The position numbers were made by a program, and so were the translations under genes. The notes beneath the pieces are model-generated. The model worked only from the letters and a program-made list of their open reading frames with translations. It was not told the DNA's origin and did not search any database. Of a stretch of DNA of 64,000 nt, positions 2,576-46,042 are shown piece by piece. The DNA is from Sphingobium sp. Cam5-1. GTDB lineage: Bacteria > Pseudomonadota > Alphaproteobacteria > Sphingomonadales > Sphingomonadaceae. The DNA is taken from positions 186,001-250,000 of the forward strand of contig NZ_CP065138.1 of assembly GCF_015693305.1 (NCBI RefSeq), written 5' to 3'. Positions within the stretch are counted from its first letter, which is position 1, and each line of letters opens with the position of its first letter.

Positions 2576-2680
2576 CCGTCATCCCAGCGCTGAAATGAGG
2601 CACGTGACTCATTTCAACTGGGATCTCATGAGGCTGGGTTGTGCCGTAAAGGCATGCGACCCCAGCTTCTGCTGGCATGG
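2576..2680. repeat. Family A palindromic repeat with nested CACGTG hairpin
   Basis: Arms CCGTCATCCCAGC and GCTGGCATGGCG flank a 100-base palindromic element between yciB and ftsY. It has the same outline as the copies at 4586-4668, 7590-7648 and 21716-21799. The tip of its left half is replaced by an extra hairpin at 2591-2616 (arms TGAAATGAG and CTCATTTCA around the core CACGTG). Confidence 0.85.
2591..2616. repeat. Small CACGTG-core hairpin, copy 1
   Basis: A 26-base near-perfect palindrome. Its central 14 bases (2597-2610) are the reverse complement of GAGTCACGTGCCTC, found exactly at 24485-24498 and 45999-46012. The outer arms (TGAAAT and ATTTCA) differ from those of the other copies but remain complementary. 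Confidence 0.85.
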
Positions 2681-2694
2681 CGCAGATGGGGCGT

Positions 2695-3633
2695 TCATCG
2701 CGCATAGGCTGTTCCTGCGATCGCGCGCGCCATGTCGCCGGGGTCGAAGGGGCGCAGATCCTCGATCTTTTCACCTACGCCGATAGCATGGATGGGCAGG
2801 CGATATTTCTCCGCCGCCGCGACCAGCACGCCGCCGCGCGCGGTGCCATCCAGCTTCGTCATGACGAGGCCGGTGACTTGCGCGACTTCCTTGAACACCT
2901 CGATCTGGTTCAAAGCATTTTGTCCGGTGGTGGCATCCAGTACCAACACAACGTCATGGGGAGCCGCCGGGTTCAACCGGCCGAGCACGCGGCGAATCTT
3001 GGCCAATTCGTCCATCAGCTCGGTCTTGTTCTGAAGGCGGCCGGCCGTATCGACGATCAGCACGTCGATGCCGGTGGCGGTCGCCTGCTTGACCGCATCG
3101 AACACGATGCCTGCTGCGTCGCCCCCTTCCTTGCCAGCGACGATGGGGATGCCGAGGCGATCGGCCCAGACCTTTAGCTGCCCGATTGCGGCGGCGCGGA
3201 AGGTGTCGCCCGCCGCCAGCATCACGCCATAATCCTGTTCCAGGAAATTATTGGCGAGCTTGGCGATGGTGGTGGTTTTGCCCGAACCGTTGACGCCGAT
3301 GACTAAAATGACCTGCGGGCGAGGAAAGGCTTCGATCTCCAACGGCCGGGCTACGGGGGCGAGAACCTTCTCGATCTCCTTCGCGATGATTTCGCGGAGA
3401 TAGTCTTCGGTGAGTTCGCGGTTGTAGCGGCCTTCGGACAGGCGATCGCGTACGCGGGCGGCCATGGCGGGGCCGAGGTCGCTGACAATCAGTGCTTCCT
3501 CGATCTCATCGAGCGTCTGGTCGTCAAGCGCAGCCTTGGTGAAGAGGCCGGTGAGGTTCTCGCCAAGCTTGTCGGAGGTGCGCTTCAGGCCGCCGAAGAG
3601 GCGGTCGCGCCAGCTGGTGCCGGGTTCAGTCAT
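2695..3633 (-). CDS. ftsY: Signal recognition particle receptor FtsY
   Basis: The SRP receptor GTPase, which docks Ffh-bound ribosomes at the inner membrane. In 312 residues the N domain covers about 10-100 and the G domain 105-310. Motifs are GVNGSGKTT (113-121), DTFRAAA (143-149), DTAGR (195-199) and TKLDG (259-263). The acidic A domain of enterobacterial FtsY is absent, as in many alphaproteobacteria. The stop of mtaB's neighbour lies within four bases of this start (ftsY begins at 3633, mtaB ends at 3630), so mtaB and ftsY overlap and are probably cotranscribed. Its partner ffh lies 2.5 kb away on the other strand. Confidence 0.97.
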   Translation of the reverse strand: MTEPGTSWRDRLFGGLKRTSDKLGENLTGLFTKAALDDQTLDEIEEALIVSDLGPAMAARVRDRLSEGRYNRELTEDYLREIIAKEIEKVLAPVARPLEIEAFPRPQVILVIGVNGSGKTTTIAKLANNFLEQDYGVMLAAGDTFRAAAIGQLKVWADRLGIPIVAGKEGGDAAGIVFDAVKQATATGIDVLIVDTAGRLQNKTELMDELAKIRRVLGRLNPAAPHDVVLVLDATTGQNALNQIEVFKEVAQVTGLVMTKLDGTARGGVLVAAAEKYRLPIHAIGVGEKIEDLRPFDPGDMARAIAGTAYAR

Positions 3634-4961
3634 TGCCGAGCCTCTTGCGCGATCAGCACGCCATTCTCAAGGGCCGTGATGGTTGCGGACGTGATCGAGG
3701 AAGGCGGTTGAGGCGTGACGAAGCGAACCGGCGCGAAATTTTCGGCGTGGCCGGTCAGGCCGTTGCGCTCGACCAGCACCGATTGGGTGGTGCCGATGAG
3801 GCTTTGCAGCCATTGCTGGCGCTGCGCTTCGCAGGCCGAGCGAAGGCGGGCAGCTCGGGCTTTGACCGTAGCGCGGTCCACCTGCGGCATGCGGGCGGCG
3901 GGGGTGCCTGCGCGTGGGGAGTAGGGGAAGATATGGCCGTGCACGATGGCGCATTCGTCGACCAGCTTCAGGCTGTTTTCGAACATCGTCTCATCCTCGG
4001 TCGGGAAGCCAGCGATGATGTCCGCCCCGATGCTGATGGCGGGGCGGGCAGCCTTGAGCCGCTCCACGATGCGAATGGCATCGGCGCGGCTATGGCGGCG
4101 CTTCATGCGCTTGAGGATCATGTCGTCGCCCGCCTGAAGCGAGAGGTGGAGGTGCGGCATCATGCGCGGCTCATGGGCGATGAGGTCGAAGAGCCGGTCG
4201 TCGATCTCCACGCTGTCGAGGGAGGAGAGGCGCAGGCGCGGCAAGGACGGCACGGCTTTCAGGATGCGCTCGACCAGGAGGCCGAGCGAGGGTGATCCGG
4301 GGAGGTCAGGGCCGTAGCTGGTGACGTCGACGCCGGTCAGCACGATTTCCTGATAGCCTGCGTCCACCAGCTCGCGCGCCTTGTCGATGACGGCGCCTGC
4401 GGGGACAGAGCGGCTATTTCCCCGGCCATAGGGGATGATGCAGAAGGTGCAGCGATGGTCGCAGCCATTTTGCACCTCCAGGAAGGCGCGGGCATGTTCG
4501 GCAAAGGCGCTGGCCATGTGCGGCGCTGTGTCGCGGACAGCCATAATGTCGGAGACTTGGACTTTCTCCGCTGCCTTCAATACGTCCGTCACCCCAGCGG
4601 AGGCTGGGGTCTCGTGCGGTAGGGCGCGGCGTTGGGCCTGAGATCCCAGCTTCCGCTGGGGTGACGGGTAGGTGGTGGGGTCGAGTTTCTCGCGGTTGCC
4701 TATTACCGCGTCGACCTCCGCCATTCGGGCGAAGGTTTCCGGCTCGGTTTGTGCAGCGCAGCCCGTCACCATGATCCGCGCCTCTGGTCGTTCGCGGCGG
4801 GCGCGGCGGATGGCTTGGCGGGTCTGGCGCACCGCTTCGGCGGTTACCGCGCAGCTGTTGACGACGATAAGGTCATCCTGCCCGCCTGCCATCTCGCGGA
4901 TGGCCTCGCTTTCCGCGATGTTGAGGCGGCAGCCGAGGGTGATGATCTGCGGGCCGCTCAT
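3630..4961 (-). CDS. mtaB: tRNA t6A37 methylthiotransferase MtaB, with a translated repeat insertion
   Basis: A radical-SAM enzyme that adds a methylthio group to t6A at position 37 of ANN-decoding tRNAs. The N-terminal MTTase domain carries the cluster cysteines Cys11, Cys37 and Cys68. The radical-SAM motif is CDHRCTFC (Cys167, Cys171, Cys174). A TRAM-like C-terminus follows. Residues about 99-126 (beginning SPQRKLGSQ and ending PASAGVTD) are encoded by a complete copy of the family A palindromic repeat, lying in the linker between the MTTase and radical-SAM domains without breaking the frame. The start is four bases from the dapF stop (4965). Function is secure; the tolerance of the insert is inferred from the intact frame. 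Confidence 0.93.
   Translation of the reverse strand: MSGPQIITLGCRLNIAESEAIREMAGGQDDLIVVNSCAVTAEAVRQTRQAIRRARRERPEARIMVTGCAAQTEPETFARMAEVDAVIGNREKLDPTTYPSPQRKLGSQAQRRALPHETPASAGVTDVLKAAEKVQVSDIMAVRDTAPHMASAFAEHARAFLEVQNGCDHRCTFCIIPYGRGNSRSVPAGAVIDKARELVDAGYQEIVLTGVDVTSYGPDLPGSPSLGLLVERILKAVPSLPRLRLSSLDSVEIDDRLFDLIAHEPRMMPHLHLSLQAGDDMILKRMKRRHSRADAIRIVERLKAARPAISIGADIIAGFPTEDETMFENSLKLVDECAIVHGHIFPYSPRAGTPAARMPQVDRATVKARAARLRSACEAQRQQWLQSLIGTTQSVLVERNGLTGHAENFAPVRFVTPQPPSSITSATITALENGVLIAQEARQ
4586..4668. repeat. Family A palindromic repeat inside the mtaB coding region
   Basis: A near-perfect inverted repeat with end arms CCGTCACCCCAGCGGA and CCGCTGGGGTGACGG and inner arms GGGGTCTC and GAGATCCC. 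It matches the intergenic copies at 7590 and 21716 in outline. Its length keeps the mtaB reading frame open and it contributes about 28 amino acids. Confidence 0.92.
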
Positions 4962-4964
4962 GCT

Positions 4965-5765
4965 CTAAAAGCGCGTCCAGTCAGCCTCGCCGTCGAAGAC
5001 GTGGGTGGCGGGGCCGGTCATCATGATGTGGCCGCCGGGTTGCCAATCGATGACGAGGTCGCCGCCGGGCAGGGTTACGCGCGTGGGTCCGGTAACGAGC
5101 TTGCGCCGTACGCCTGCGACGGCCGTGGCGCAGGCTCCAGTGCCGCATGCGCGGGTGAGGCCAGCGCCGCGTTCCCAGACGATCAGGCGGATATGATTGT
5201 CGCCGACTATCTGCGCGAAGTTGACGTTGACGCGGGCGGGGAAGAGCGGATCGGTCTCGATCAGCGGGCCTAAATGCTCGAAGTTCACACCGTTCAGATC
5301 GTCCACGAAGAAGATGACATGCGGGTTGCCGACATTGACGGCGGCGGGGGCGGGGAGGTCTTCCCAGCTGACTGGCATGGTCAGCGTGTCCAGGGCGTAG
5401 GCGAGGGGAATGGCATCCCAGTCGAGCCGGGGCGCGCCCATATCGACGGTAGCACCGCCATTGATTGCCTTGGCTTCCAGCAGTCCCGCCTTGGTTTCGA
5501 TCAGCACGTCGCGGCCGACGAACAGGGGAACGCAGCGGGTAGCGTTGCCGCAGGCTTCGACTTCGCTGCCGTCGCTGTTGAAGATGCGCATGGATACGTC
5601 GGCGCGATCGGACTGGCCGATGAGGATCAGCTGATCGCAGCCTATGCCTGCGTGGCGGTCGGCTATGGCTTGGGCGCGGGTGGGGGTCACGTCGACCGCG
5701 CCCTCCCGCGCGTCGATCACGACGAAGTCGTTGCCCAGCCCGTGCATTTTGGAAAATCGGCCCAT
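4965..5765 (-). CDS. dapF: Diaminopimelate epimerase
   Basis: A cofactor-independent racemase that converts LL- to meso-diaminopimelate for lysine and peptidoglycan synthesis. Catalytic cysteines are Cys72 (in ACGNATRC) and Cys207 (in ACGTGAC), each in one of the two pseudo-symmetric lobes. The N-terminal KMHGLGNDFVVID and the NPHVIFFVDD segments are family hallmarks. At 266 residues it has normal length. It is probably the first gene of the dapF-mtaB-ftsY transcript, since the spacing to mtaB is only a few bases. Its product feeds the DAP-type MurE encoded at 57.6 kb. Confidence 0.96.
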   Translation of the reverse strand: MGRFSKMHGLGNDFVVIDAREGAVDVTPTRAQAIADRHAGIGCDQLILIGQSDRADVSMRIFNSDGSEVEACGNATRCVPLFVGRDVLIETKAGLLEAKAINGGATVDMGAPRLDWDAIPLAYALDTLTMPVSWEDLPAPAAVNVGNPHVIFFVDDLNGVNFEHLGPLIETDPLFPARVNVNFAQIVGDNHIRLIVWERGAGLTRACGTGACATAVAGVRRKLVTGPTRVTLPGGDLVIDWQPGGHIMMTGPATHVFDGEADWTRF

Positions 5766-5812
5766 AATGGTCGCGCATGTAGGGGGTGTGGGGGAAAAAG
5801 GCGAGTCTGCAT

Positions 5813-5901
5813 CCCGTCATCCGCCATCCCGGGCTTGACCCGGGATCCCGCTTCCTTGCGCGGGACCGAGCGGGACCCCGGATCAAGTCCGGGGTGACGG
5901 G
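5813..5901. repeat. CCCGGG-type palindromic repeat
   Basis: An 89-bp inverted repeat related to family A at its ends (CCGTCATCC and GGGTGACGGG) but with a CCCGGGCTTGACCCGGGATC interior, a form common between alphaproteobacterial genes. It lies between divergent genes, so it is not a terminator for either. Confidence 0.8.
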
Positions 5902-5995
5902 TAGAGAATGTGGTGCGCGTCATTGCATCCCTCCCCCCATTCCGCTAAGGGCCACATCGCAATTGGGCGGTTCGCCGTTCGATACCCTGACAGAT

Positions 5996-6058
5996 CCATG
6001 GTGCTCACACGGGAGCACCGGATGGACGCTGGCCGGCGAGGTTTCGCCCGCCGGCGGT
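5996..6058 (+). promoter_or_regulatory. Candidate structured 5' leader of ffh
   Basis: Two stable hairpins lie in tandem. The first pairs CCAT (5996-5999) and GGTGCTC (6000-6006) with GAGCACC (6013-6019) and ATGG (6022-6025), leaving a two-base bulge. The second pairs GCCGGCG (6032-6038) with CGCCGGC (6049-6055) and is followed by GGTTTTG. The second resembles an intrinsic terminator some 60 bases before the ffh start, so this could be an attenuator or a conserved leader RNA. Only the structure is seen; regulation is inferred. Confidence 0.5.
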
Positions 6059-6116
6059 TTTGTCGTTTGGCGGGGTGGCGCTGTTTTCCGGGCTTTTCGG
6101 CCCAAATGAGGTGATG

Positions 6117-7586
6117 ATGTTCGATTCGCTAAGCGATCGTCTGAGCGGGGTATTCGACAAGCTGCGTGGGCGCGGTGCGCTGACGGAGGACGATGTCCGC
6201 GCCGCGATGCGCGAGGTGCGAATCGCGCTGTTGGAAGCCGACGTCGCGCTTCCGGTCGTGCGCCAGTTCGTCGATCAGGCGACCGAGCGGGCCGTGGGCA
6301 GCGACGTGCTGCGGTCGGTCACGCCGGGGCAGATGGTCGTCAAGATCGTCTCCGACACGCTGACCGAGACGCTGGGTTCTGAAACGTCCGACCTGCTGAT
6401 CGATGTCAGTCCGCCTGCGGTCATCATGATGGTCGGCCTTCAGGGGTCGGGCAAGACTACCTCCACCGCCAAGATCGCCAAGCGTTTGAAGGAAAAAGAG
6501 CGCAAGAAGGTGCTGATGGCGTCGCTCGACGTCCAGCGTCCGGCCGCGCAGGAACAGTTGGCGGTGCTGGGCACGCAGACCGATGTCGCGACCCTGCCGA
6601 TCGTGGCGGGTCAGCAGCCGGTCGATATCGCCAAGCGGGCTTTGCAGGCGGCGAAGCTTCAGGGCTTCGACGTGGTGATGCTCGACACGGCGGGTCGTTT
6701 GCACGTCGATCAGGCGCTGATGGACGAGATGAAGGCGGTGGCCGAAGTCTCCAATCCGGCGGAAATCCTGCTCGTTGTTGACTCGCTGACCGGCCAGGAC
6801 GCGGTGAATGTCGCAACCAGCTTTACCCAACAGGTGCCGCTGACCGGCGTGGTGCTGACCCGCATGGACGGCGATGCGCGCGGCGGCGCTGCGCTGTCGA
6901 TGCGTGCGGTCACAGGCCGCCCGATCAAATTCGCGGGCACCGGCGAAAAGCTGGACGCGATCGAGCCATTCCATCCCGCGCGCGTGGCGCAGCGCATCCT
7001 TGGCATGGGCGACGTCGTGTCGCTGGTCGAGAAGGCGGCCGAGGCGGTCGACGCCGATGAAGCCGAGAAGCTCGCCAAGAAGATGGCCAAGGGTCAGTTC
7101 GACATGAACGACCTGCGCGCCCAGCTTAACCAGATGCGCCGCATGGGTGGCCTCGGCGCGCTGGCGGGCATGCTGCCGGGCCTCAAGAAGGCGCAGGCCG
7201 CGATGGCGGCGAGCGGGGCCAATGACAAGACGCTGATCCATCTGGACGCGATGATCGGATCGATGACGCCCAAGGAGCGGGAGAAGCCCGGCCTGATCAA
7301 CGCCAAGCGCAAGATCCGCATCGCCAAGGGTAGCGGACGCACGGTGCAGGAAGTCAACAAGCTCCTGAAAATGCATCAGGAGATGGAAACGGCGATGAAG
7401 AAGATCCGCAAGATGGGCGGATTGAAGGGGCTCGCCAAGATGTTCACCGGCGGTGGCATGGACAAGCTGATGGGTGGCGCGGGTGGCGCGCCGGACCTTG
7501 GCGGGCTTGGTGGATTGGGCGGCCTTGGAGGCGGAGGCAATATGCCCAACCTGCCGCCGGGCTTTCAGAATTTCATGAAGAAATAG
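6117..7586 (+). CDS. ffh: Signal recognition particle protein Ffh
   Basis: The SRP54 GTPase that binds signal peptides and 4.5S RNA and pairs with FtsY. In 489 residues the N domain covers 1-95, the G domain 100-295 with GLQGSGKTT (107-115), DTAGRLHVD and TRMDGDARGG, and the methionine-rich M domain about 300-450. The extreme C-terminus is a Gly/Leu-rich low-complexity tail (GGLGGLGGLGGGGN). The start at 6117 gives the conserved MFDSLSDRL opening; an ATG directly before it (6114) and an upstream in-frame ATG at 6060 are less likely. No 4.5S RNA gene is visible in the window. Confidence 0.96.
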   Translation: MFDSLSDRLSGVFDKLRGRGALTEDDVRAAMREVRIALLEADVALPVVRQFVDQATERAVGSDVLRSVTPGQMVVKIVSDTLTETLGSETSDLLIDVSPPAVIMMVGLQGSGKTTSTAKIAKRLKEKERKKVLMASLDVQRPAAQEQLAVLGTQTDVATLPIVAGQQPVDIAKRALQAAKLQGFDVVMLDTAGRLHVDQALMDEMKAVAEVSNPAEILLVVDSLTGQDAVNVATSFTQQVPLTGVVLTRMDGDARGGAALSMRAVTGRPIKFAGTGEKLDAIEPFHPARVAQRILGMGDVVSLVEKAAEAVDADEAEKLAKKMAKGQFDMNDLRAQLNQMRRMGGLGALAGMLPGLKKAQAAMAASGANDKTLIHLDAMIGSMTPKEREKPGLINAKRKIRIAKGSGRTVQEVNKLLKMHQEMETAMKKIRKMGGLKGLAKMFTGGGMDKLMGGAGGAPDLGGLGGLGGLGGGGNMPNLPPGFQNFMKK

Positions 7587-7589
7587 TCT

Positions 7590-7648
7590 GTCATCCCAGC
7601 GAAGGCTGGGATCTCAGGCACAAGATCCCAGCCTTCGCTGGGATGACG
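7590..7648. repeat. Family A palindromic repeat between ffh and rpsP
   Basis: A compact, almost perfect inverted repeat: GTCATCCCAGCGAAGGCTGG against CCAGCCTTCGCTGGGATGAC around a short centre. It lies just after the ffh stop and may double as a 3' hairpin, but it has no T-run. Confidence 0.92.
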
Positions 7649-7691
7649 AATTGAAGCTAAGTAGATTAGAGTAGAAAGGTCAAAAACTAAC

Positions 7692-8159
7692 ATGGCAACG
7701 TCCATTCGTCTTTCGCGCGGTGGTTCCAAGAAGCGTCCTTATTACCGCATCGTCGTGGCCGACAGCCGCGCGCCGCGTGACGGCAAGTTCATCGAGCGTA
7801 TCGGCAGCTACAACCCCGTCCTGCCCAAGGGCGACGAGAAGCGCGTCGTGATCGACGTTGAGCGTGCGAAGCACTGGGTTGCCGCTGGCGCGCAGCCGAC
7901 CGACCGCGTTGCCCGCTTCCTCGACGCGGCTGGCGTGAAGGAACGCGCTGCCCGCAACAATCCGAAGAAGGCTGAGCCGGGCCAGAAGGCCAAGGATCGC
8001 GCCGAAGACCGCGCGACTAAGGCTGCGGAAGCCGCAGAAGCTGCCGAAGCCGCGAAGGCTGCTGCCGCTGAGGCCGCTGCCGCTCCGGCCGCTGAAGAAG
8101 CGCCTGCCGCTGAAGAAGCTGCTCCTGAAGCCGCTTCTGAAGAACAGGCTGAAGGCTGA
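7692..8159 (+). CDS. rpsP: 30S ribosomal protein S16 with Ala/Glu-rich tail
   Basis: A 30S subunit assembly protein. The first 85 residues are the complete S16 fold ([20 protein letters not shown], then [10 protein letters not shown] and [20 protein letters not shown]). The remaining 70 residues are a low-complexity Ala/Glu/Lys tail, so the protein is 155 residues against about 82-90 in E. coli; such tails are common in sphingomonads. An AAAGG element precedes the ATG. It heads the rpsP-rimM-trmD-rplS translation operon. Confidence 0.96.
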
Positions 8160-8169
8160 CATGATGAAG

Positions 8170-8265
8170 CCCCTCCCTTTCAAGGGAGGGGTTGGGGTGG
8201 GTAGAGCGGGCCTAAGGCTCGCTTCGCTCGCACCCACCCTCAATCCCCTCCCTGGAAGGGAGGGG
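8170..8265. repeat. Family B palindromic repeat between rpsP and rimM
   Basis: The outer hairpins are CCCCTCCCTTTCAAGGGAGGGG on the left (8170-8191) and a second CCCCTCCC/GGGAGGGG hairpin on the right. Inner arms GGTGGGT and ACCCACC enclose GCTCGCTTCGCTCGC. The same plan is seen at 21905-22016 and 24374-24520. Its right end abuts the rimM start and appears to supply the Shine-Dalgarno sequence. Confidence 0.9.
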
Positions 8266-8269
8266 AGGC

Positions 8270-8752
8270 ATGAGCGGCGACAAACCCGTCACTCTCGCCG
8301 TTATCATCGGCGCGCATGGGGTGGCGGGCGAGGTTCGTCTGAAGCTCTTTGGGGAAGGCGTGGAAACGCTCAAATCCTATAAGAGCTTCGACGCTGCGGG
8401 CGGCAAGCTGACGTTGAAGTCGGTGCGTTCCGGCCCCAATGGTGCGGTCGCGCGCTTCGCCGAGATTGGCGATCGCAGCGCCGCCGAAGCGTTGCGTGGG
8501 ACCGAACTGACCGTTCCCCGCTCTGCCCTGCCTCCGCTGGAGGAGGGTGAATATTATCATGCCGACCTCATCGGCTTGCCCTGTTTCTCCAGCGAGAGTG
8601 AGGGGCTGGGCAATATCGTCGCGGTCGAGAATTTCGGCGCTGGCGATATTATCGAGGTCGAACGGCCCAACGGCAAACGCTTCATGGCGCCGATGCATGC
8701 GGTCACGATCGCGGACGGACGGGCCGTGATCGAAGCGGCCTTTGCGGTTTGA
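8270..8752 (+). CDS. rimM: Ribosome maturation factor RimM
   Basis: Binds S19 and helps 16S 3'-domain maturation. The 160 residues include the N-terminal beta-barrel (VTLAVIIGAHGVAGEVRLK, then RGTELTVPRSALPPLEEGEYYHADLIGL) and a C-terminal PRC-barrel-like half ending FMAPMHAVTIADGRAVIEA, all at standard length. The ATG at 8270 is only a few bases after a palindromic repeat whose GGGAGGGG end is the only plausible ribosome-binding site. It sits in the conserved order rpsP-rimM-trmD-rplS, interrupted by one small extra gene. Confidence 0.95.
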   Translation: MSGDKPVTLAVIIGAHGVAGEVRLKLFGEGVETLKSYKSFDAAGGKLTLKSVRSGPNGAVARFAEIGDRSAAEALRGTELTVPRSALPPLEEGEYYHADLIGLPCFSSESEGLGNIVAVENFGAGDIIEVERPNGKRFMAPMHAVTIADGRAVIEAAFAV

Positions 8753-8765
8753 TCGGCGGTCGCTG

Positions 8766-9038
8766 ATGCCCCAAATCCTTACCGCCCTCTATCTGCTGAT
8801 GATGATCGCCGCAGGGTGGCGCTTGTTCACCATGCCATGGAAGCGCGCGTTGAAGATTGGCGCGGCGGTGGCGCTGGTCATCCCTATTCCCCTGCTATTT
8901 CTCCTGCCCGCTTTGATGAACCCGGAGCGGCCCTTTGCCGATCTGCTGCGTGCTATCGGTGTTGCCCTGATGGCAGGCGGCACCGTGTCGTTGCTGGGGG
9001 GCATGTCCGCGGCGTGGCTGCGCAAGCGCAAGGCGTGA
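8766..9038 (+). CDS. Small two-to-three-helix membrane protein, function unknown
   Basis: A protein of about 90 residues, [21 protein letters not shown] onward, with hydrophobic segments at about 3-20, 30-50 and 62-82 and a basic C-terminus (WLRKRKA). It lies between rimM and trmD and overlaps trmD by four bases (GTGA), so it is translationally coupled to it. The start at 8766 is preferred over an upstream in-frame ATG at 8742 that would overlap the end of rimM. I do not recognise a family. The tight packing in a translation operon supports a real gene. Confidence 0.65.
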
Positions 9039-9766
9039 GTTTTCGGACGCAGATATTGACGCTTTATCCGGAGATGTTTCCGGGACCGTTGGGCGTGTCG
9101 CTGGCCGGGCGCGCTCTGGCGGAAGGGAAATGGTCGTGCGATCCGATCCATATCCGCGATTTTGCGACCGACAAGCACCGCACCGTTGACGACACGCCTG
9201 CGGGCGGTGGCGCGGGGATGGTGCTGCGCGCCGACATATTGGGGCTGGCTATCGATCACGCGCTGGAACAGGGGCCGGACCTGCCGGTGATCGCCATGAC
9301 GCCGCGCGGTAAGCCGATCACCCAAACACGCGTGCGCGAACTGGCGGCGGGGCCGGGCGCGACGATATTGTGCGGACGGTTCGAGGGCTTTGACGAGCGT
9401 ATCTTCGAGGCGCGGCCGGTTGAGCAGATCAGCATGGGCGACATCATTTTGTCCGGCGGCGAGATGGGTGCGCTGATGCTGCTCGATGCTTGCATTCGGC
9501 TGCTTCCCGGAGTAATGGGCGCGGCTTCCAGTGGGGATGAAGAGAGCTTCGAAAGCGGCCTTCTCGAATATCCGCACTATACCCGACCCGCTTTGTGGGA
9601 AGGGCGCGCGATCCCTGAAGTGTTGCGATCGGGGGATCATGCGAAAATCGCCGCCTGGCGGAAACAAAGGGCGGAAGATGACACACGGCTAAGGCGGCCG
9701 GACCTTTGGGAACGTCATATCGGCGTTCGGGACCAGCCGCCCTCTGGTGCGCAACGCAAAAGGTAG
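9035..9766 (+). CDS. trmD: tRNA (guanine-N1-)-methyltransferase TrmD
   Basis: Methylates G37 of tRNAs reading CNN codons, preventing +1 frameshifts. The GTG at 9035 overlaps the preceding stop and gives the conserved opening [16 protein letters not shown]; translation from upstream would run through the small membrane protein. The SPOUT trefoil-knot region is clear: [26 protein letters not shown] and [19 protein letters not shown]. At 243 residues it has normal length. It is followed after 11 bases by rplS, so it is cotranscribed. Confidence 0.95.
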
Positions 9767-9777
9767 GACTTTAAGTC

Positions 9778-11417: not shown

Positions 11418-11624
11418 ATGTGCCATCCTCTTTCGTGCGTTTCGCTCGATCGGATGACAGGGAGGGATAAGGAACCTGCACCGGTGTCACCCGATGCGGT
11501 CCGACATCACGTCGCTTCTGGGGAGAAGCAGCGCCAGAGGGGCCCGGTCCGCAGAGATGGGGATAACCGGTTCCCGCGCGGGGCGCAAGTCCGGCGGGGT
11601 AGCCTTAGTGCTGCCGTGCCACGA

Positions 11625-24373: not shown

Positions 24374-24520
24374 CCCCTCCCGCAGGCGGGAGGGGTTAGG
24401 GGTGGGCGCGAGCGAAGCGAGCTTTGGAGCTTACCTCAAAATGTAAATCTGGCATTGCGCAGGCCCACCCCCGGCCCTTCAAACGAGTCACGTGCCTCGT
24501 TTGAACGCCTGCGGGAGGGG
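24374..24520. repeat. Family B palindromic repeat with nested CACGTG hairpin
   Basis: Left arm CCCCTCCCGC with GCGGGAGGGG, then GTTAGGGGTGGGC; right arm GCCCACCCCCGGCCC and CGCCTGCGGGAGGGG. The unique interior holds GCGAGCGAAGCGAGC. In the right arm the expected CCCCTCCC is replaced by a hairpin at 24478-24505. It fills the gap between the lyase and the convergent lipoprotein. Confidence 0.9.
24478..24505. repeat. Small CACGTG-core hairpin, copy 2
   Basis: Arms TTCAAAC and GTTTGAA around the invariant core GAGTCACGTGCCTC (24485-24498). It is inserted in the tip of the right arm of the family B repeat. Confidence 0.88.
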
Positions 24521-38097: not shown

Positions 38098-39197
38098 GTC
38101 ATTTCGACATCGTGATCGTCGGTGGTGGCATAGCAGGCGCGAGCCTGGGCGCGGAACTGGCGGGCCAGGCGTCGGTGCTGATCCTGGAGCAGGAGGAAAG
38201 CGCTGGATATCACGCCACCGGCCGATCTGTTGCTTTCTGGGAGGAAACCTATGGCGGGCGGCAGGTGCAGCCGCTGACCACGGCGTCCGGGCCGTTGTTG
38301 CGCTCGCCTGATCCAGCCTTTGCAAGCCGATCCTTCCTGACGCCCCGGCAGACGCTGTTCGTCGGGCGGGAGGCCGATGGGGCAGAGCGCGACCGGTTGA
38401 TGCGGGAATTTTCGGGCTGCGTCGACCTGCGTCCTGTTGATCCCGCCGCGCTGGTAGCGGGGCTGAGACCCCATTGGACGATCGGCCTGCTGGAACCGGG
38501 CGTGTGCGACATCGATGTCGCCGCGCTGCATCAGGCGTATCTGCGGCGCTTCCACGCGAAGGGCGGTACATTGCGGCTGGGCACTGTTTTCGAGCAGGCG
38601 ACCCCCACGCCGGGCGGCTGGCGCATACAGACGAACGGCGGCGTCATTGATTGCGGCATCATAGTGAACGCCGCTGGCGCATGGGCCGATGATGTCGCAC
38701 GGCGCAGCGGCGTCGCGCCCATCGGCATAGCCCCACTGCGCCGCACCGTCGTGCAACTGCGCGTGCCCGCGATGCCGTCACCCGACCTGCCACTGGTCAT
38801 GGACCTTGGCTCCAGCTTCTATTTCAAGCCGGAGGGCGAAGGGCGGATCTGGCTGACCCCGCATGATGAAGAACCTTCGCCGCCCTGCGACGCCGCGCCC
38901 GAAGAACTGGCGGTGGCGCAGGCGATCGCCCGTTTCGAAGATGTCGTGGACTGGCCGGTTGAGGCGGTCGAACGCAAATGGGCGGGGCTGCGCAGCTTCG
39001 CGCCCGATCGCGCGCCCGTCTATGGCTTTGACGCCGATGCAGCGGGTTTCTTCTGGTTCGCGGGGCAGGGCGGTTTCGGCATTCAGACTGCACCTGCCGC
39101 GGCATTGCTGGGATCGGCGCTGGTGACCGGCGGATCGATGCCCAAAGCGGTGGGCGGGATTGATCCCGCCGCTTATTCTCCCACCCGTTTCAAGTAA
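38094..39197 (+). CDS. FAD-dependent oxidoreductase (DadA/glycine oxidase-like)
   Basis: 367 residues. The N-terminal Rossmann motif IVIVGGGIAGASLGAEL binds FAD, and the C-terminal block PVYGFDADAAGFFWFAGQGG, read in two parts, is the usual end of the DAO family. The mid part NAAGAWADDVARRSG is also conserved. It oxidises an amine or amino acid, the identity of which is not readable. The gene is coupled to the hydrolase upstream. Confidence 0.88.
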   Translation: MSHFDIVIVGGGIAGASLGAELAGQASVLILEQEESAGYHATGRSVAFWEETYGGRQVQPLTTASGPLLRSPDPAFASRSFLTPRQTLFVGREADGAERDRLMREFSGCVDLRPVDPAALVAGLRPHWTIGLLEPGVCDIDVAALHQAYLRRFHAKGGTLRLGTVFEQATPTPGGWRIQTNGGVIDCGIIVNAAGAWADDVARRSGVAPIGIAPLRRTVVQLRVPAMPSPDLPLVMDLGSSFYFKPEGEGRIWLTPHDEEPSPPCDAAPEELAVAQAIARFEDVVDWPVEAVERKWAGLRSFAPDRAPVYGFDADAAGFFWFAGQGGFGIQTAPAAALLGSALVTGGSMPKAVGGIDPAAYSPTRFK

Positions 39198-39301
39198 ACC
39201 AAGGCCGGGTACGGCTAGCCGGAACGAAGAGGCTGCCATCACGTTGGGTCAATGGCCGCGCCCATGTAGATGGGATGCAATAAAGATGCGGCCGATCCTA
39301 A

Positions 39302-39403
39302 AGCATTTTCCAAGTGGATGGTATCATCTGCTGCCTGAGAAAATGCGGAAAACAAAAGACAATTAGAGCATGAGTCAATTCAGTCTGATCGGCTTATGCT
39401 CTA
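39302..39403. repeat. Family E mosaic repeat (GCATTTTC...GAAAATGC...TAGAGCAT...ATGCTCTA)
   Basis: Two adjacent hairpins: GCATTTTC (39303-39310) with GAAAATGC (39339-39346), then TAGAGCATGA (39364-39373) with TTATGCTCTA (39394-39403). This arrangement is a common mosaic repeat of alphaproteobacteria. It lies just before the urcA start. Confidence 0.75.
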
Positions 39404-39422
39404 GGAGTAGGAGAATGCGGTG

Positions 39423-39836
39423 ATGAGAAAGTCGATATTATCAGGGTCGGTCCTGATCCTGTCAGGACTGTTTATGGCAAGTGGCAGCACCAGCTTTGCT
39501 CAGCCAACAGAGGAAATTATCGTGACGGGGCGCTATAGCGACGCCCAATCCCTTTCGCAAAATGTCAGTTATGCCGATCTCGACCTTAGTACAAAGGCCG
39601 GGAAGGACGAGCTGCGCCACCGCGTCGCGCTGACCGCCCGTTACCTATGCGACAAGCTGGGCGAATCGGGTTCATCGTCGGCCGTCGCGCCCAGTTGTCG
39701 GGATGCCGCGGTGAAGGACGCGATGGCGCGGGTCGGCACGGTCGAAGAGGGCTTTGCGCCGCGTGGCACGACATGGGTCGCCGGTACGCGCTGGCAGCCG
39801 CCCTATCCTGCGGACTGGGTCGAAAAATATCCCTGA
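39423..39836 (+). CDS. UrcA family protein
   Basis: 137 residues from the ATG at 39423, preceded by AGGAGTAGGAG. The signal peptide ends near TSFAQPTEE; the UrcA core (VSYADLDLSTKAGKDELRHR, then TARYLCDKLG) follows, with the conserved Cys. Proteins of this family are secreted or periplasmic and of unknown function, and frequent in sphingomonads and Caulobacter. It stands alone. Confidence 0.87.
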   Translation: MRKSILSGSVLILSGLFMASGSTSFAQPTEEIIVTGRYSDAQSLSQNVSYADLDLSTKAGKDELRHRVALTARYLCDKLGESGSSSAVAPSCRDAAVKDAMARVGTVEEGFAPRGTTWVAGTRWQPPYPADWVEKYP

Positions 39837-39870
39837 ACCCTGTCGGGGGAGCGGCGTTTCGCTCCCCCGT

Positions 39871-40317
39871 TCAGACGCGGAAGAGTTCGGCGGCCGCGCA
39901 GGCGAGTTGATCGGCGCGCTCATTTTCAGGGTGACCGGCATGGCCCTTAACCCATTGCCAGCTGACCTTGTGCGGCGCGGCGGCGGCGAGCAGCGCCTGC
40001 CATAGCTCGGCATTCTTGACGGGCTTGCGGTCGGCGGTCTTCCAACCATTCTTCTGCCAGCCGAACACCCATTTGGTGATGCCGTCCATCACATATTTGC
40101 TGTCGGTATAGAGCGTGACCTGGCAGGGGCGATTGAGTGCGTTCAGCGCTTCGATGGCGGCCATCATTTCCATGCGGTTATTGGTGGTCTGCGCCTCCCC
40201 GCCGGAAATTTCCTTTTCCTTCGAGCCAGAGCGCAGTACCGCGCCCCAGCCCCCAGGGCCGGGATTGCCCTTGCACGCGCCGTCGGTGAAGATTTCGACC
40301 TTTGAAAGCGCGCTCAC
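39871..40317 (-). CDS. rnhA: Ribonuclease HI
   Basis: 148 residues that cleave the RNA of RNA-DNA hybrids. Catalytic residues Asp12 (FTDGACKGN), Glu50, Asp72 (YTDSKYV) and Asp136 (NERADQLA) are all present, with the basic handle ([20 protein letters not shown], read in parts). It overlaps thrB by four bases and is the last gene of the ispH-thrB-rnhA transcript. Confidence 0.96.
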
Positions 40318-41291
40318 GCCCGCAACAACTCCGACGGCGCAGTCTGCGCATAGAAATCCAACCGCCGCAGATAGGCCAGCGGGTCCTTGCGCGTCACCAG
40401 CGCGTCGGCGGGCGTGTTGATCCAGTCATAGGCCCGCGTCAGCAGGAAACGCAGCGACGCGCCCCGGCACAGGATCGGGAAGGCGGCCTGCTCGGCATCC
40501 GAGAGTCCGTGCGCCGCCTGATAGCCAGCGAGCATCGCGGCCGACCGATCGGGAAAGAAGTGCGCGCCATCATTGCTGAAAACCCATGCGCTGTGCGTGA
40601 CGGCCAGGTCATAGGCGCGAATATCGGTGCAGCTGAAATAAAAGTCGATGAGGCCCGTCACCTCATCGCCCAGCATCAGCACATTGTCGGGGAAAAGGTC
40701 CCCATGAATGACGGCGCGTGGCAGTTCGGCGGGCCAGTGCGCGTCGAGATAGGCAAGCTCATCCGCGACCCGCCGGCCAAGGCCGGGCGCGATATCATCG
40801 AAATGATCGCCGCACTTGGCCGCCAGATCGTGCCAGCCAGCGATGTCGAGCGCGTTGCGGCGTTCGCCCGCAAAGCCTTCCGCCGCGCGATGCAGCTGGC
40901 CCAGCGCCGCGCCTGCGGCTTTCGCCTGTCCGGCGGTAGGCTCGGTGACGGATATGCCGGTCAGGAACTCGATCAGGCAGGCGGGCCTTCCGCCCAGTTG
41001 TTGCAGGCGCTTGCCCTCCCGATCAGCGATGAAGCGCGGCACCAGACAGCCGCGCGCGCCCAGATGATCGAGCAGATCCATGAAAAAGGGGAGGTCGGCC
41101 TCATCGACCCGCTTTTCGTAGAGAGTGAGAATATAGCGGTGGCCATTGCCGTCCGCGCCGGTGGTTTCCAGCAGATAGTTGCTGTTTTCCACCCCTTCGG
41201 CGATCCCCTTGGCGGAGACCAGCCGTCCCGCGTCATAGCGGGTCAGAAAGGCGTCGATTTCCTCGGCCGGGACATGGGTATAGACCGCCAT
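40314..41291 (-). CDS. thrB: Homoserine kinase, ThrB2/APH-like type
   Basis: 325 residues related to aminoglycoside phosphotransferases. The kinase motifs are [14 protein letters not shown] (catalytic loop) and GLIDFYFSC (metal-binding Asp). It phosphorylates homoserine in threonine synthesis. The opening [21 protein letters not shown] is typical. It is close to ispH upstream (five bases) and rnhA downstream (overlap). Confidence 0.93.
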
Positions 41292-41295
41292 AGCC

Positions 41296-42243
41296 TTACG
41301 CCGCTCCCAATTCGCGGGGAAGTTTGAACGAGACGGTTTCGCGCGCCGTCTCCACCTGTTCCTCCGTCACGTCGAATCGGGCGGCAAGCCGGTCCACGAC
41401 TTCGCGCACCAATATTTCGGGGGCGGAGGCGCCTGCGGTCAGGCCGAGGGTCGCCACATTCTCCAGCCACCCAAAATCGATATCGTCTGCGCGCTGGATC
41501 AGCCGGGCTGGCGTGCCCTCGCGTTCGGCCACCTCGACCAGGCGGAGCGAGTTGGAGCTGTTGGGCGCGCCGATCACATAGACCGCGTCGCAGGCGGCGG
41601 CGATCGCCTTCACGGCCGCCTGTCGGTTCGACGTTGCGTAGCAGATGTCCTCGCCCTTGGGCGCGTGGATCGATGGGAATCGGCGCTGAAGCGTTTCCAC
41701 AATCGCGGCCGTATCGTCCACCGACAGGGTGGTCTGGGTCAGGAAAGCAAGATTGTCGGGATTTTCGGGAGTAAAGCCCTCCGCATCCTCGACCGTTTCG
41801 ATCAATGTCATGTTGCCCGCATCGACCTGCCCAAAGGTGCCGACGACCTCGGGATGCCCCCTGTGACCAATGAACAGGATATGGCGCCCTGCCTCGACCT
41901 GCCGTTCGGCCTGCCGGTGCACCTTGCTGACCAATGGGCAGGTGGCGTCCAGATAATCAAGGCCGCGTTCTTCCGCCTTTGCCGGCACCGCCTTGGGCAC
42001 GCCATGGGCGGAAAAGACCACGGGCACGCCGTCGGGCACCTGATCCAGTTCCTCGACGAAAATCGCGCCCTGCGCCCGCAGATTGTCCACGACATATTTA
42101 TTATGGACGATCTCGTGCCGGACATAGACGGGCGCGCCATATTTCTCGATCGCCTTTTCGACGATGATGATGGCGCGGTCCACGCCAGCGCAAAAGCCGC
42201 GCGGGGCGGCGATCAATAGCTTTAAGGGAAGACGGGCGGTCAT
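41296..42243 (-). CDS. ispH: 4-hydroxy-3-methylbut-2-enyl diphosphate reductase
   Basis: 315 residues, the last step of the MEP isoprenoid pathway. The [4Fe-4S] ligands Cys18 ([12 protein letters not shown]), Cys102 (DATCPLV) and Cys201 ([11 protein letters not shown]) are present, with the catalytic Glu132 in HRGHPEV. Length is normal. It is probably the first gene of the ispH-thrB-rnhA run on the minus strand and faces the next gene across 120 bases. Confidence 0.96.
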
Positions 42244-42364
42244 GGCTGCCGCTTAGGGCAATGTCGCGCCAGAAGGAAGGGGTGAGGGGAGGCGCGCTCC
42301 TTTCGGTTGCGTGAGCGGCGGGGTGCGGATAAGAAGCCCCAGCCTGTTCCCAAGGGATTGCCTC

Positions 42365-43003
42365 GTGACCTTTTCTCGACTTGCGCTGACCGGAATGCTC
42401 GCCCTTGCCCTTGCGGGCTGCTCGCGCCGGGGAGAAATCGATGCCACGGGTGGCGTCGTCGCCGTCCGATCGGCCTGCCCGACCGCCGCGATCCCCGCCT
42501 ATACGGGTGACGTGACGCTTTTCAATCCTGCTGGCAGCACCGACGCCCGCGCGATCGACGTGGTGGCGAACATCACCGACCTGCGCGCGACCTGTGCGGA
42601 AGGCGCGCAATTCTACAGCGAGGCGACCTTTACGGTGAACGCCCGCCGTTCCGACGCCACCGCCGCGCGGCAAGTGACGCTGCCCTTCTTCTCCGCCGTG
42701 GTACGTGGCGGCAACGCCGTCGTTGCCAAGCGTGTCGGCCAGGTCGTGCTGGACTTCCCCGCAGGTCAGTATCGCGCGACAGCGACCGCAAAGGCGGGCT
42801 CCTATGTCGACAAGGCCGCAGCGACGCTGCCTGCCGACATTCAGGCGAAGATCACGCAGAAGCGCAAGGCAGGCGATGCCGACGCGGCTATCGATCCCTT
42901 CGCCCAGCCTGACGTCCGCGCGGCGCTGCAACGAACCAGTTTCGAGCTGCTCGTGGGTTTCAACCTGACCCAGGACCAGCTCCGATATAACGCTACACGT
43001 TAA
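42365..43003 (+). CDS. Predicted lipoprotein, function unknown
   Basis: 212 residues from the GTG at 42365. The signal peptide (FSRLALTGMLALALAGCSR) ends at the lipobox LAGC; an earlier in-frame start would add a charged stretch ahead of it. The mature part is beta-rich (VDVVANITDLRATCAEGAQF, read in pieces) with two Cys (about 56 and 80) and ends LVGFNLTQDQLRYNATR. It has no enzyme motif. It is divergent from ispH. Confidence 0.72.
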   Translation: MTFSRLALTGMLALALAGCSRRGEIDATGGVVAVRSACPTAAIPAYTGDVTLFNPAGSTDARAIDVVANITDLRATCAEGAQFYSEATFTVNARRSDATAARQVTLPFFSAVVRGGNAVVAKRVGQVVLDFPAGQYRATATAKAGSYVDKAAATLPADIQAKITQKRKAGDADAAIDPFAQPDVRAALQRTSFELLVGFNLTQDQLRYNATR

Positions 43004-43020
43004 GAGCGAACCTTAATCTT

Positions 43021-43048
43021 CCGTTCGCCCTGAGCTTGTCGAAGGGCT
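43021..43048. repeat. Family C short repeat, opposite orientation
   Basis: CCGTTCGCCCTGAGCTTG followed by TCGAAGGGCT, the inverted counterpart of 12968-12994. It lies between the lipoprotein and argS. Confidence 0.75.
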
Positions 43049-43127
43049 CTACTTCTTTGCAGGGAAGGATGAGGCTTCGATTTTAGCCCAGCCCGGACGG
43101 GTCTTGTGCTTTTTCGAGGAAACAGCC

Positions 43128-44855
43128 TTGTCTCTCTACATTCGTTTCACTGCCCATCTGAACGCCGTGCTGGACGCGCTGGAGGCGGACGGCACGCTGC
43201 CCGCTGGCCTCAACCGCAAGTCCGTCACGGTAGAGCCGCCCCGCGATCCCAGCCATGGCGACCTCGCTACCAACGCGGCTATGGTGCTTGCCAAGCCCGC
43301 AGGCACCAACCCGCGCGCGCTGGCGGAAAAGATCGTCGCTGGCCTTGAAAAGCTGGACGAGGTGGAAAGCGCCACCATCGCTGGACCCGGCTTCATCAAC
43401 CTGACGCTGACCGACGCCACCTGGCGCGCCGAACTCGCCGCCATCGAAGCCGAGGCTGCGGATTACGGCCGGTCAGACATGGGCACGGGCGTCACCGTCA
43501 ACGTCGAATATGTCTCCGCCAACCCCACCGGCCCCATGCATATGGGTCACTGCCGGGGCGCGGTAGTCGGCGATGCGCTCGCGACCTTGCTCGAATATGC
43601 CGGGCACAAGGTCATCCGCGAATATTATATCAACGATGCAGGCGGCCAGGTCGATGTGCTCGCCCGCTCGGCCCATATCCGCTACCGCGAGGCGCTGGGC
43701 GAGGATGTCGGCGCGATCCCGGAAGGCCTGTATCCCGGCGACTATCTGGTCCCTGTCGGCCAGGCGCTCGCCGCCGAATATGGCGACAAGTTCGTAGGCG
43801 CGCCCGAAAGCGATTGGCTCGTCCCCTTCCGGACCAAGGCGGTGGCCGCGATGATGGAGATGATCCGCAGCGACCTCGCTTTGCTCGGCATCCACCACGA
43901 CATCTTCGCGTCCGAAGCCGAACTGCAAGCCGCCGGAAAGCCCGAAGCCGCCGAAAAGTGGCTGCGCGACCATGACCTCGTCTATGACGGCGTCCTCGAA
44001 GCGCCCAAGGGCGAAACGCCCGAAGATTGGGAGCCGGTCGAACTTCCCTTGTTCCGCTCCACCAAATTCGGCGACGATCAGGACCGCCCGATCAAGAAGT
44101 CGAACGGCGCCTGGACCTATTTCGGCGCCGACATGGCTTATCATTTCCAGAAGGCGCAGACCGCCGACCAGCTCATCGACATCTGGGGCGCCGACCATGC
44201 GGGCACCGTCAAGCGCATCCAGGCCGCCGTCGCCGCCCTGACCGAGGGCAAGGCGCGCTTCGATGTCAAGCTCATCCAGATGGTCCGCCTGCTCCGCGAT
44301 GGCGAGCCGGTGAAGATGTCCAAGCGCGCGGGCAATTTCGTGACGCTTGCCGATGTCGTCCGCGAAGTCGGCAAGGACGTCGTCCGCTTCACCATGCTCA
44401 CGCGCAAGGCCGACGCCCAGATGGACTTCGACTTCGCCAAGGTGGTGGAAGCGTCAAAGGACAATCCGGTTTTCTACGTCCAATATGCCCACGCACGCAT
44501 TTCCTCGCTCGGCCGCCGCGCCGAAGAGGCACAAATTGCACTTCCCGCGCCCGACCTGTCCCGCCTTGGGACTGAAGAACTTAACCTTGTTAAGTTAGCG
44601 GCGCAGTTCCCGCGGGTGGTGGAAGGGGCTGCATCGGCCCGCGAACCGCATAGAATCGCTTTCTATCTCAACGACTTGGCTTCTGAATTCCACAGCTGGT
44701 GGAATCTGGGGAACGACAATCCGCGCGCCCGCGTCATCCTGACGGACGATCCGGACGTAACTTCTGCGCGCCTTTTCTTAAGCCGTGGAATCGGGCAAAT
44801 CATCCGTAATGGCCTTGCCCTGATGGGCGTGGCCGCGTTGACGGAAATGCAATAG
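43128..44855 (+). CDS. argS: Arginyl-tRNA synthetase
   Basis: 575 residues from the TTG at 43128, with GAGGA seven bases before it; a start upstream gives no such site. The class I HIGH signature is SANPTGPMHMGHCRGA and the KMSK-type loop is KMSKRAGNF. The N-terminal tRNA D-loop-recognition domain and the C-terminal DALR anticodon domain are complete. Length is normal for the family. Confidence 0.96.
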   Translation: MSLYIRFTAHLNAVLDALEADGTLPAGLNRKSVTVEPPRDPSHGDLATNAAMVLAKPAGTNPRALAEKIVAGLEKLDEVESATIAGPGFINLTLTDATWRAELAAIEAEAADYGRSDMGTGVTVNVEYVSANPTGPMHMGHCRGAVVGDALATLLEYAGHKVIREYYINDAGGQVDVLARSAHIRYREALGEDVGAIPEGLYPGDYLVPVGQALAAEYGDKFVGAPESDWLVPFRTKAVAAMMEMIRSDLALLGIHHDIFASEAELQAAGKPEAAEKWLRDHDLVYDGVLEAPKGETPEDWEPVELPLFRSTKFGDDQDRPIKKSNGAWTYFGADMAYHFQKAQTADQLIDIWGADHAGTVKRIQAAVAALTEGKARFDVKLIQMVRLLRDGEPVKMSKRAGNFVTLADVVREVGKDVVRFTMLTRKADAQMDFDFAKVVEASKDNPVFYVQYAHARISSLGRRAEEAQIALPAPDLSRLGTEELNLVKLAAQFPRVVEGAASAREPHRIAFYLNDLASEFHSWWNLGNDNPRARVILTDDPDVTSARLFLSRGIGQIIRNGLALMGVAALTEMQ

Positions 44856-44875
44856 CCAGGCGGAGGCACGGATAA

Positions 44876-45586
44876 ATGGGCGACTTTGCGAGGGGGCGGC
44901 TCGATCTGGACGATGACGAGCGTCTGCCCTGGCTGGAGCCTGGTATCGAGGATGAGGAGGATGAGGGCCTGTCACCTGTCCGCCTGCTCGGCTTCATCCT
45001 GGTTGCGCTCGTCCTGCTCGGCGGCGTGGTCGCTGGCGTCTGGCTTCTCAAGAACCGTTCGACTGGCGGCGGCGAAGGCAAGCTGATCGCCGCGCCCGCT
45101 GGCGACTATAAAGTCCCCGCCCGCGAGGCTGATGCGAAGAAGTTCGAGGGCGAGGGCGACGCCAGCTTCGCCGCCAGCGAAGGCGTCGTGCGCGACGGCC
45201 GCATCGATCCCAGCCGCGTGCCCGAAGCGCCCGTGACCGCCACCGCCCCTGCAAAGACACGGCAGGCCGTGCCCGGCAAACCGTCGCAGAGCGTGACCGC
45301 TCGCGTCGCCGACGAAACCAACGTCCGCCCCGCCGCCGCCCAGCCGGTGCACAAGGGCGGAGCCGTGATCCAGCTCGGCGCCTATGGCAGCCAGTCCGGC
45401 GCCCGCGATGCCTGGACCCGCCTGTCCAAACGCTTCGCTTATCTGGCTCCGCTCACCATGTCGGTCGAGCCTACGCAGGTCGGCGGCAGCACCCTCTACC
45501 GCCTGCGCGCGACGGCGGGGGCACAGGCGAATACGCTCTGCGGCAAGCTGAAGGTTGCTGGTGAGAGTTGTATCGTGGTGAATTAG
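44876..45586 (+). CDS. SPOR-domain protein
   Basis: 236 residues. A cytoplasmic acidic N-terminus (FARGRLDLDDDERLPWLEP) precedes one membrane helix (about 40-60), a long Ala/Pro-rich periplasmic linker and a C-terminal SPOR domain (AVIQLGAYGSQSGARDAW, then STLYRLRATAGAQANTLCGKL) that binds denuded septal glycan. It fits a division-site protein of the FtsN/DedD kind. It lies between argS and the DUF559 element. Confidence 0.87.
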   Translation: MGDFARGRLDLDDDERLPWLEPGIEDEEDEGLSPVRLLGFILVALVLLGGVVAGVWLLKNRSTGGGEGKLIAAPAGDYKVPAREADAKKFEGEGDASFAASEGVVRDGRIDPSRVPEAPVTATAPAKTRQAVPGKPSQSVTARVADETNVRPAAAQPVHKGGAVIQLGAYGSQSGARDAWTRLSKRFAYLAPLTMSVEPTQVGGSTLYRLRATAGAQANTLCGKLKVAGESCIVVN

Positions 45587-45597
45587 GTTACCCACTG

Positions 45598-45638
45598 CTC
45601 CCTCTTCCCTTCAGGGGAGAGGGTTGGGGAGAGGGGAG
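45598..45638 (+). repeat. Left inverted arm flanking the DUF559 gene
   Basis: CTCCCTCTTCCCTTCAGGGG, then AGAGGGTTGGGGAGAGGGGA. It is inverted relative to the arm at 45974-46039 and is of the family B type. It ends six bases before the TTG start of the DUF559 gene. Confidence 0.88.
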
Positions 45639-45643
45639 CAACG

Positions 45644-46042
45644 TTGCGGGATCGAAAATCGCTGGGTTTCGCGAAACAGCTGCGCCGCTCACTAACTCCT
45701 GCCGAAGCCCGCCTCTGGTATCACTTGCGCGCCAAGCGCTTCGCTGGCGTCAAGTTCCGCCGCCAAACCGTAATCGGCCCTTTTATCGCCGATTTTACCT
45801 GCCGCGCGTCGATGATGGTGCTCGAGATCGATGGCGACACCCACGGTTTGACCGCGCAACATGACGCTGAACGAACCACTTATCTCAAACAACAAGGCTG
45901 GCACGTCATCCGCTTCACCAACACAGAAGTTATGCAGAGCCTTGAAGCCGTCCTGTCCGACATAGCGCAGCGCCTTCCCCTCTCCCTAACCTCGATGAGA
46001 GTCACGTGCCTCTCATCGACCCCTGAAGGGGAGAGGGAGTAA
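45644..46042 (+). CDS. DUF559 (Vsr-like) endonuclease-domain protein
   Basis: 132 residues from a TTG start. The DUF559 core reads RSLTPAEARLWYHLRAKRF, VKFRRQTVIGPFIADFTC, EIDGDTHG, the QHDAERTTYLKQQGWHVIRF segment and NTEVMQ. Asp in IADF and Glu/Asp in EIDGDTH are probable PD-(D/E)xK-type residues, as in Vsr repair nucleases. The last 20 residues or so are encoded by the right-hand repeat arm, and the stop TAA falls immediately after the arm. It is bracketed by inverted repeats, so the gene and arms look like one unit. No partner gene is adjacent. Confidence 0.85.
   Translation: MRDRKSLGFAKQLRRSLTPAEARLWYHLRAKRFAGVKFRRQTVIGPFIADFTCRASMMVLEIDGDTHGLTAQHDAERTTYLKQQGWHVIRFTNTEVMQSLEAVLSDIAQRLPLSLTSMRVTCLSSTPEGERE
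45974..46039 (-). repeat. Right inverted arm flanking the DUF559 gene, with nested CACGTG hairpin
   Basis: TTCCCCTCTCCCTAACC on the inner side, then the hairpin of 45992-46019, then CCCCTGAAGGGGAGAGGGAG. It is inverted relative to the left arm. The DUF559 stop codon follows directly. Confidence 0.88.
45992..46019. repeat. Small CACGTG-core hairpin, copy 3
   Basis: Arms TCGATGA and TCATCGA around the invariant core GAGTCACGTGCCTC (45999-46012). It sits within the end of the DUF559 reading frame and the tip of the repeat arm. Confidence 0.88.

Follow-up and report, generated by a model that had tools for sequence, protein, structure and literature searches.

Miniature inverted-repeat transposable elements (MITEs) are non-autonomous and palindromic, and the Rickettsia palindromic elements are dispersed palindromes which can be read through in frame. 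Repetitive extragenic palindromic (REP) sequences and bacterial interspersed mosaic elements (BIMEs), with their REP-associated tyrosine transposase (RAYT), are described as short, dispersed intergenic palindromes whose stem pairing is kept by complementary change; they are defined by a GT(A/G)G head together with the stem, and REPs lie on both sides of the RAYT gene (PMC2817692). REPs are in turn targeted by IS1397, IS621 and other insertion sequences, each a complete element that encodes a transposase (PMC1525189). Here we describe a 28-bp hairpin found three times in a stretch of 64,000 nucleotides from Sphingobium sp. Cam5-1 (contig NZ_CP065138.1, positions 186,001 to 250,000), hereafter called the window. 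The evidence presented below shows a nearly fixed core, covarying arms, several unrelated host repeats, and filled and empty alleles at the same loci. The best explanation, to which the sequence comparisons give about an even chance, is a non-autonomous dispersed hairpin that would be recognized by its tip, swapped for 4 bp of REP/BIME-like palindromes and spread in part with its host repeats.

The REP/BIME elements are the nearest kind. The stem pairing of the hairpin is likewise maintained through complementary change; the hairpin differs from those elements in its fixed tip, free stem and rare head, and in that a Y1 transposase gene is missing from most genomes rich in it. Because the head tetranucleotide and a cognate Y1 gene did not generally accompany the hairpin, we do not class it as a RAYT-associated REP. 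Insertion into palindromic units recalls the REP-targeting insertion sequences, but the hairpin has 28 bp and its target loses 4 bp. As in the Rickettsia palindromic elements, the reading frame is kept at the third window site, owing to a net gain of 24 bp, but the hairpin is far shorter, its tip is fixed, and it is nested in other repeats. It shares with MITEs its non-autonomous and palindromic nature, but it has no general target duplication, 4 bp being missing instead, and its arms have no fixed terminal sequence. Neither a description of the hairpin nor its core sequence was found in the open-licence literature, subscription journals and preprints being outside the search. A hairpin that typically stands for just four bases in many different palindromic repeats of Sphingobium suggests a miniature dispersed element of a kind not described before.

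Filled and empty alleles at the same loci

The comparison of orthologous loci, proposed in an earlier sequence-only reading of the window, showed that filled and empty forms of the same locus differ in having 28 or 4 bp between the same flanks. At the first window site, the ortholog in genome G022 reads CGTCATACCAGCG-GAAG-CTGGCATC, and the window reads CGTCATCCCAGCG-28 bp-CTGGGATC. When 10-bp flanks were used and 0.62 Mb compared, empty counterparts were obtained for 62 of 113 copies, the modal gap being 4 in 48; with flank pairs and 1.74 Mb compared, counterparts were obtained for 140 of 173, with a modal gap of 4 in 97. Shuffled flank pairs matched in 18 of 60 cases, only 3 of the 18 having a gap of 4.

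The same lengths were seen when distinct contexts of each host repeat family were counted. A gap of 4 was found in 84 contexts of family A and 74 of family A2, and a gap of 28 in 1 and 2, respectively. For the other families the contexts with gaps of 4 and 28 numbered 16 and 6 (B, with a further 7 of gap 5), 12 and 7 (C, with 7 of gap 3), 14 and 9 (E, with 4 of gap 27), and 20 and 5 (F). Hosts D and H were excluded from these counts, as loose patterns gave noise. Expansion or contraction of C or G runs may account for the gaps of 3 and 5.

Both forms can also be found side by side within one Sphingobium locus. Strains TomTYG72 and TomTYG74 carry the hairpin in the right repeat, the left one being empty (AGAG); in TomMM7A, TomTYG73 and TomMM15 it is in the left repeat, and the right one is empty (CTCT); TomTYG64 and TomTYG46 have a different repeat at this place.

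A nearly fixed core and its pairing arms

The pattern search of the window located the 14-mer GAGTCACGTGCCTC exactly at 2597-2610 (minus strand), 24485-24498 and 45999-46012 (both plus strand), in full agreement with the sequence-only reading. With up to three mismatches allowed, 9 matches were obtained vs. 6.64 expected by chance, so that only the exact ones are informative; three of the 9 were these, and three more were the same sites on the opposite strand. The unit has 28 bp, with a 14-bp core between two arms of 7 bp, and its tip is GAG-T-CACGTG-C-CTC. Some details of the first description had to be corrected. The arms are complementary at all three sites, though not perfectly so, since 6 bases are paired at site 1; the core is almost but not strictly invariant, because one core base is changed at four further sites of the own genome. 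The hairpin does lie within larger palindromes, as borne out by the surveyed contexts and flank pairs, but not always in their apical part, as some hosts carry it in one arm.

Folding of the three window hairpins as single-stranded DNA gave -6.7, -8.4 and -8.8 kcal/mol (z scores -5.18, -4.26 and -4.26), 1 of 200 shuffles of the second hairpin folding equally well. Sites 1 and 2 each have an empty inverted partner repeat; at site 3, beyond G022, most of the relatives read have other DNA at the orthologous place. The features are collected in Table 1.

Table 1. Hairpin copies and host repeat parts in the window
Feature	Position	Strand	Remarks
Hairpin copy 1, 28 bp	2590..2617	-	Arms TGAAAT/ATTTCA, outermost pair broken; G022 ortholog empty (GAAG)
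Host repeat of copy 1, left part (family A)	2577..2589		Aligned to empty ortholog
Host repeat of copy 1, right part (family A)	2618..2628		Aligned to empty ortholog
CTTC in the empty inverted partner repeat of copy 1, position matching the hairpin	2666..2669		Sequence reading
Hairpin copy 2, 28 bp	24478..24505	+	Arms TTCAAAC/GTTTGAA
Empty partner repeat of copy 2 (family B)	24374..24395		GGAG at 24389-24392 in the hairpin's place; family B gaps 4 or 28
Host repeat of copy 2, right part, CGCCTGCGGGAGGGG	24506..24520		Sequence reading
Hairpin copy 3, 28 bp	45992..46019	+	Arms TCGATGA/TCATCGA; same hairpin at the orthologous place in G022
Host repeat of copy 3, right part, CCCCTGAAGGGGAGAGGG (family C)	46020..46037		Sequence reading

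The covariation of the arms was evaluated on 22 distinct 28-mers, preselected for arms of at least 5 bp. Of all cells, 99.1% were paired, and 55 two-sided changes were counted vs. 13.0 (standard deviation 3.2) in shuffles; partner sliding abolished the pairing. A less biased scan covered 84,980 species genomes, with four outer positions per arm weakly constrained and three inner ones free. At least 120 stretches matched, and the pairing counts come from the 80 loci listed. Among the matches listed, 72 of 83 distinct sites were fully paired at the free positions, with about 1.3 expected by chance, and the remaining 11 had a single mismatch there; full pairing was likewise seen in 34 of 45 distinct 28-mers, and every locus came from sphingomonads or from an unclassified proteobacterial bin. 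Thus the arms change in complementary pairs, which supports the initial suggestion that the hairpin is selected as a structure. Nor is the 14-mer mostly armless: in its 127 distinct contexts, exact copies had arms of at least 5 bp in 103. The 24 exceptions include arms with one mismatch or an indel, a family in genome G023 with a bulged stem, and copies for which no arm partner can be made out.

The outermost base in 51 distinct perfect arms was T in 40, G in 9 and A in 2, the arms with G deriving from other genera. The orientation of the core relative to host and arm is variable: the two orientations were counted 23 and 4 times for arm TCGAAGA, 4 and 4 for TTGAAAC in host D, and 12 and 0 for TCGGCCA. 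In the G023 family (loci L021 and L085-L089), the 14-mer is part of a repeat flanked by CGAAAAACCC and CCCACTTTTTCG, and pairing of the arms requires a one-base bulge. A likeness of CACGTG to parS and of the 11+6+11 bp layout to dif was also considered; both were dropped because the arms vary while the centre is fixed.

The search of sphingomonad genomes, likewise put forward in the sequence-only reading, found the 14-mer with its arms well beyond the window. The own genome (4.37 Mb) bears 15 exact copies, 8 on the plus and 7 on the minus strand, each flanked by complementary arms of 6-9 bp, vs. 0 for the reversed control. Among 61 genomes subjected to the pattern search, the 14-mer was present in 29 (29 of 37 in the same genus, 0 of 24 in other families of the order), and the reversed control gave 0 in all; the carriers are Sphingobium and relatives. 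A covariance model built from the 22 distinct 28-mers matched 70 of 94 genus genomes at an E value of 1e-5, leaving 24 without a match, with a maximum of 59 in one genome, and at 0.01 it had matches, some of them weak, in 20 of 397 family genomes and 6 of 96 genera; such counts may score both strands of one symmetric site, and the large searches used stricter filters. The distribution across the family is patchy.

Two further observations concern the window itself. A 132-codon open reading frame (ORF; 45644-46042) reads in frame through the third hairpin copy and its host repeat and stops just past the repeat; its frame is unchanged with or without the hairpin because the net 24 bp make eight codons. 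In the Rfam search of the window at the gathering threshold, the terC RNA family (RF03067) at 11492-11555 on the minus strand, with 55.2 bits, was the sole match, and the hairpin was not matched.

Host repeats and the search for an enzyme

The hairpin was found in larger palindromic repeats of several kinds, which look BIME-like, with two inverted hairpins round a central stem. Repeats A, A2/g64 and F can be aligned to each other; counted from a CAT common to all three, the hairpin lies at a distance of 10, 14 and 18 bases, respectively, and 4 bp occupy this position in the empty forms; the remaining host families are unrelated to these three. Since alignable repeats bear the hairpin at different positions and other hosts are unrelated, several separate insertions appear to fit best, judging from the alignments. 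On the other hand, the arm TTCAAAC recurs in several hosts and a single host family bears several arms, which suggests that the arms are partly inherited with the element. Separate insertions and multiplication with the host both seem to be needed.

Several loci deserve mention in their own right. Wholly different BIME-like repeats, as if exchanged entire, occur from strain to strain at the Tom-strain locus (L283, L290-L295) and at L286 and L296-L298. One orthologous intergenic region in four genomes (L155, L048, L031 and L347) has hairpins in different host repeats, which by a rough reckoning may be chance. In TomTYG64, an annotated hypothetical protein (L286, 1465-2409) begins upstream of the hairpin and covers it, its start being possibly misplaced. 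REP/BIME-like repeats also occur in genus genomes that lack a match to the Y1 transposase, as 71 of 94 do. Finally, L073, L158 and L159 lack the stretch between the two inverted repeats; the outer parts meet at a single hairpin, and the resulting palindrome extends 21-24 bp past the core. Both repeats and the intervening stretch are present at L137, and at L159, a related locus with flanks about 93% identical, the stretch is absent from one 4-bp position to the other. From these alignments we infer that the long palindromes probably arose by deletion between two copies in one element.

The genomes and neighbouring genes were searched for an enzyme or an autonomous parent. Of 94 genus genomes, 23 have a match to the Y1 transposase (PF01797); among the 13 with at least 10 hairpin matches the number is 5, and no association is seen; nor was there any for the reverse transcriptase (PF00078), found in 3 of the 13 richest genomes vs. 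48 of 94 overall and absent from the window's own genome. Of the 13 richest genomes, 12 have a transposase of the IS110 type (PF02371), but so do 78 of all 94, and G481, with 13 hairpin matches, has none. No autonomous parent was seen at the clustered copies L045 and L046, where ORF reading, with no family search made, gave ordinary-looking genes. The search for recurrent neighbours at 104 loci returned only shared, duplicate or few-locus gene clusters; of four ORFs from these, three were assigned by Pfam to an ABC transporter, a short-chain dehydrogenase and a phage portal protein, and the fourth had no match. A GTAG/GTGG head within 8 nt outside either end was present in only 7 of 218 contexts. 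Direct repeats of 5-9 bp flanked 0-1 of the 218 contexts, those of 4 bp flanked 8 (vs. 2.08 in shuffles), and those of 2 bp flanked 87 (vs. 61.1). General target duplication is absent, and the orthologs show a 4-bp loss instead.

How the hairpin may have spread

In the mechanism we propose, a trans-acting protein would read the hairpin tip, probably as single-stranded or extruded DNA, and insertion of the hairpin into a repeat hairpin would delete 4 bp. Because the protein would read the tip, the arms would be constrained only to pair. Once inserted, the hairpin would also be carried along by host-repeat amplification and by conversion between host-repeat copies. The strictest version, a minimal mobile DNA with tip-only recognition and almost any self-complementary arms, moved in trans with exactly 4 bp lost from palindromic targets, is put forward tentatively.

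Several points speak against such an exchange. The modal gap was other than 4 in 43 of the 140 flank pairs (17 with gap 5 and 26 with others), and the flank pairs are non-independent, because many copies have multiplied with the host repeat, as in the TCGAAGA group in G026. Gaps of 3, 5 and a few other lengths occur in some distinct contexts, and the loci L090 and L091, as read, did not show the 4-bp rule. A strong target consensus was not noticed, no movement was observed, and the searches of genus genomes and neighbouring genes found no enzyme. Finally, the arms track the host subtype at orthologous loci (TCGGCCA with GGCACC, TCGATGA with AACC), which is what passive spread predicts. In that case one or a few old insertions would have been passed on between host repeats through gene conversion, template switching and amplification of the repeats, while the arms drifted by compensatory change. 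The exchange of entire repeats between strains at one intergenic place would agree with this, as would the TTGAAGC/TTGAAAC/TTGAATC series in one host, which resembles stepwise change. However, passive spread alone is rather unlikely, given the three different distances from CAT in alignable repeats, each with a 4-bp empty form, the unrelated host families, and the constancy of the core while the arms differ at most positions.

The fixed tip and the paired arms would also be expected if the hairpin had a function in cis, as RNA or as DNA, with a host protein binding the structure and selection keeping it at each site. Its presence, however, varies among strains at one locus, 24 of the 94 genus genomes have no model match, the core orientation is not constant (e.g., for TCGAAGA), one copy lies in frame inside an ORF, and the sole Rfam match of the window is elsewhere, all of which makes such a role improbable. 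It is even harder to regard the hairpin as an unusual REP, the substrate of a Y1 transposase of the RAYT or IS200/IS605 type, which we consider very unlikely: its irregular tip and palindromic targets would suit such an enzyme, and 4-bp direct repeats do exceed the shuffled number, though they amount to no general target duplication, but PF01797 is missing from most genomes of the genus and from most of the hairpin-rich ones, and the head is rarely present near the ends. Least probable of all is the formation of the arms at insertion by inverted copying of the flanks, as envisaged in the sequence-only reading. The three loci with long palindromes would be in line with it, but L137 and L159 suggest a two-copy deletion, the empty forms hold neither arm, and the flanks show no excess of arm words, whose longest match there averaged 4.846 vs. 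4.776 (standard deviation 0.074) with shuffled pairings.

If the exchange of 4 bp for a tip-recognized hairpin is true, few known dispersed elements would be as small as this hairpin, which would have a sharp quantitative signature of 4 bp out and 28 bp in. The logic of its recognition, a fixed tip and a free stem, would be opposite to that of REPs, and the enzyme responsible would be either new or a known one in a new use. Y1 enzymes are the usual explanation invoked for such palindromic repeats; here, one palindrome is nested in many others in genomes mostly without Y1 enzymes. The 4-for-28 rule is directly testable.

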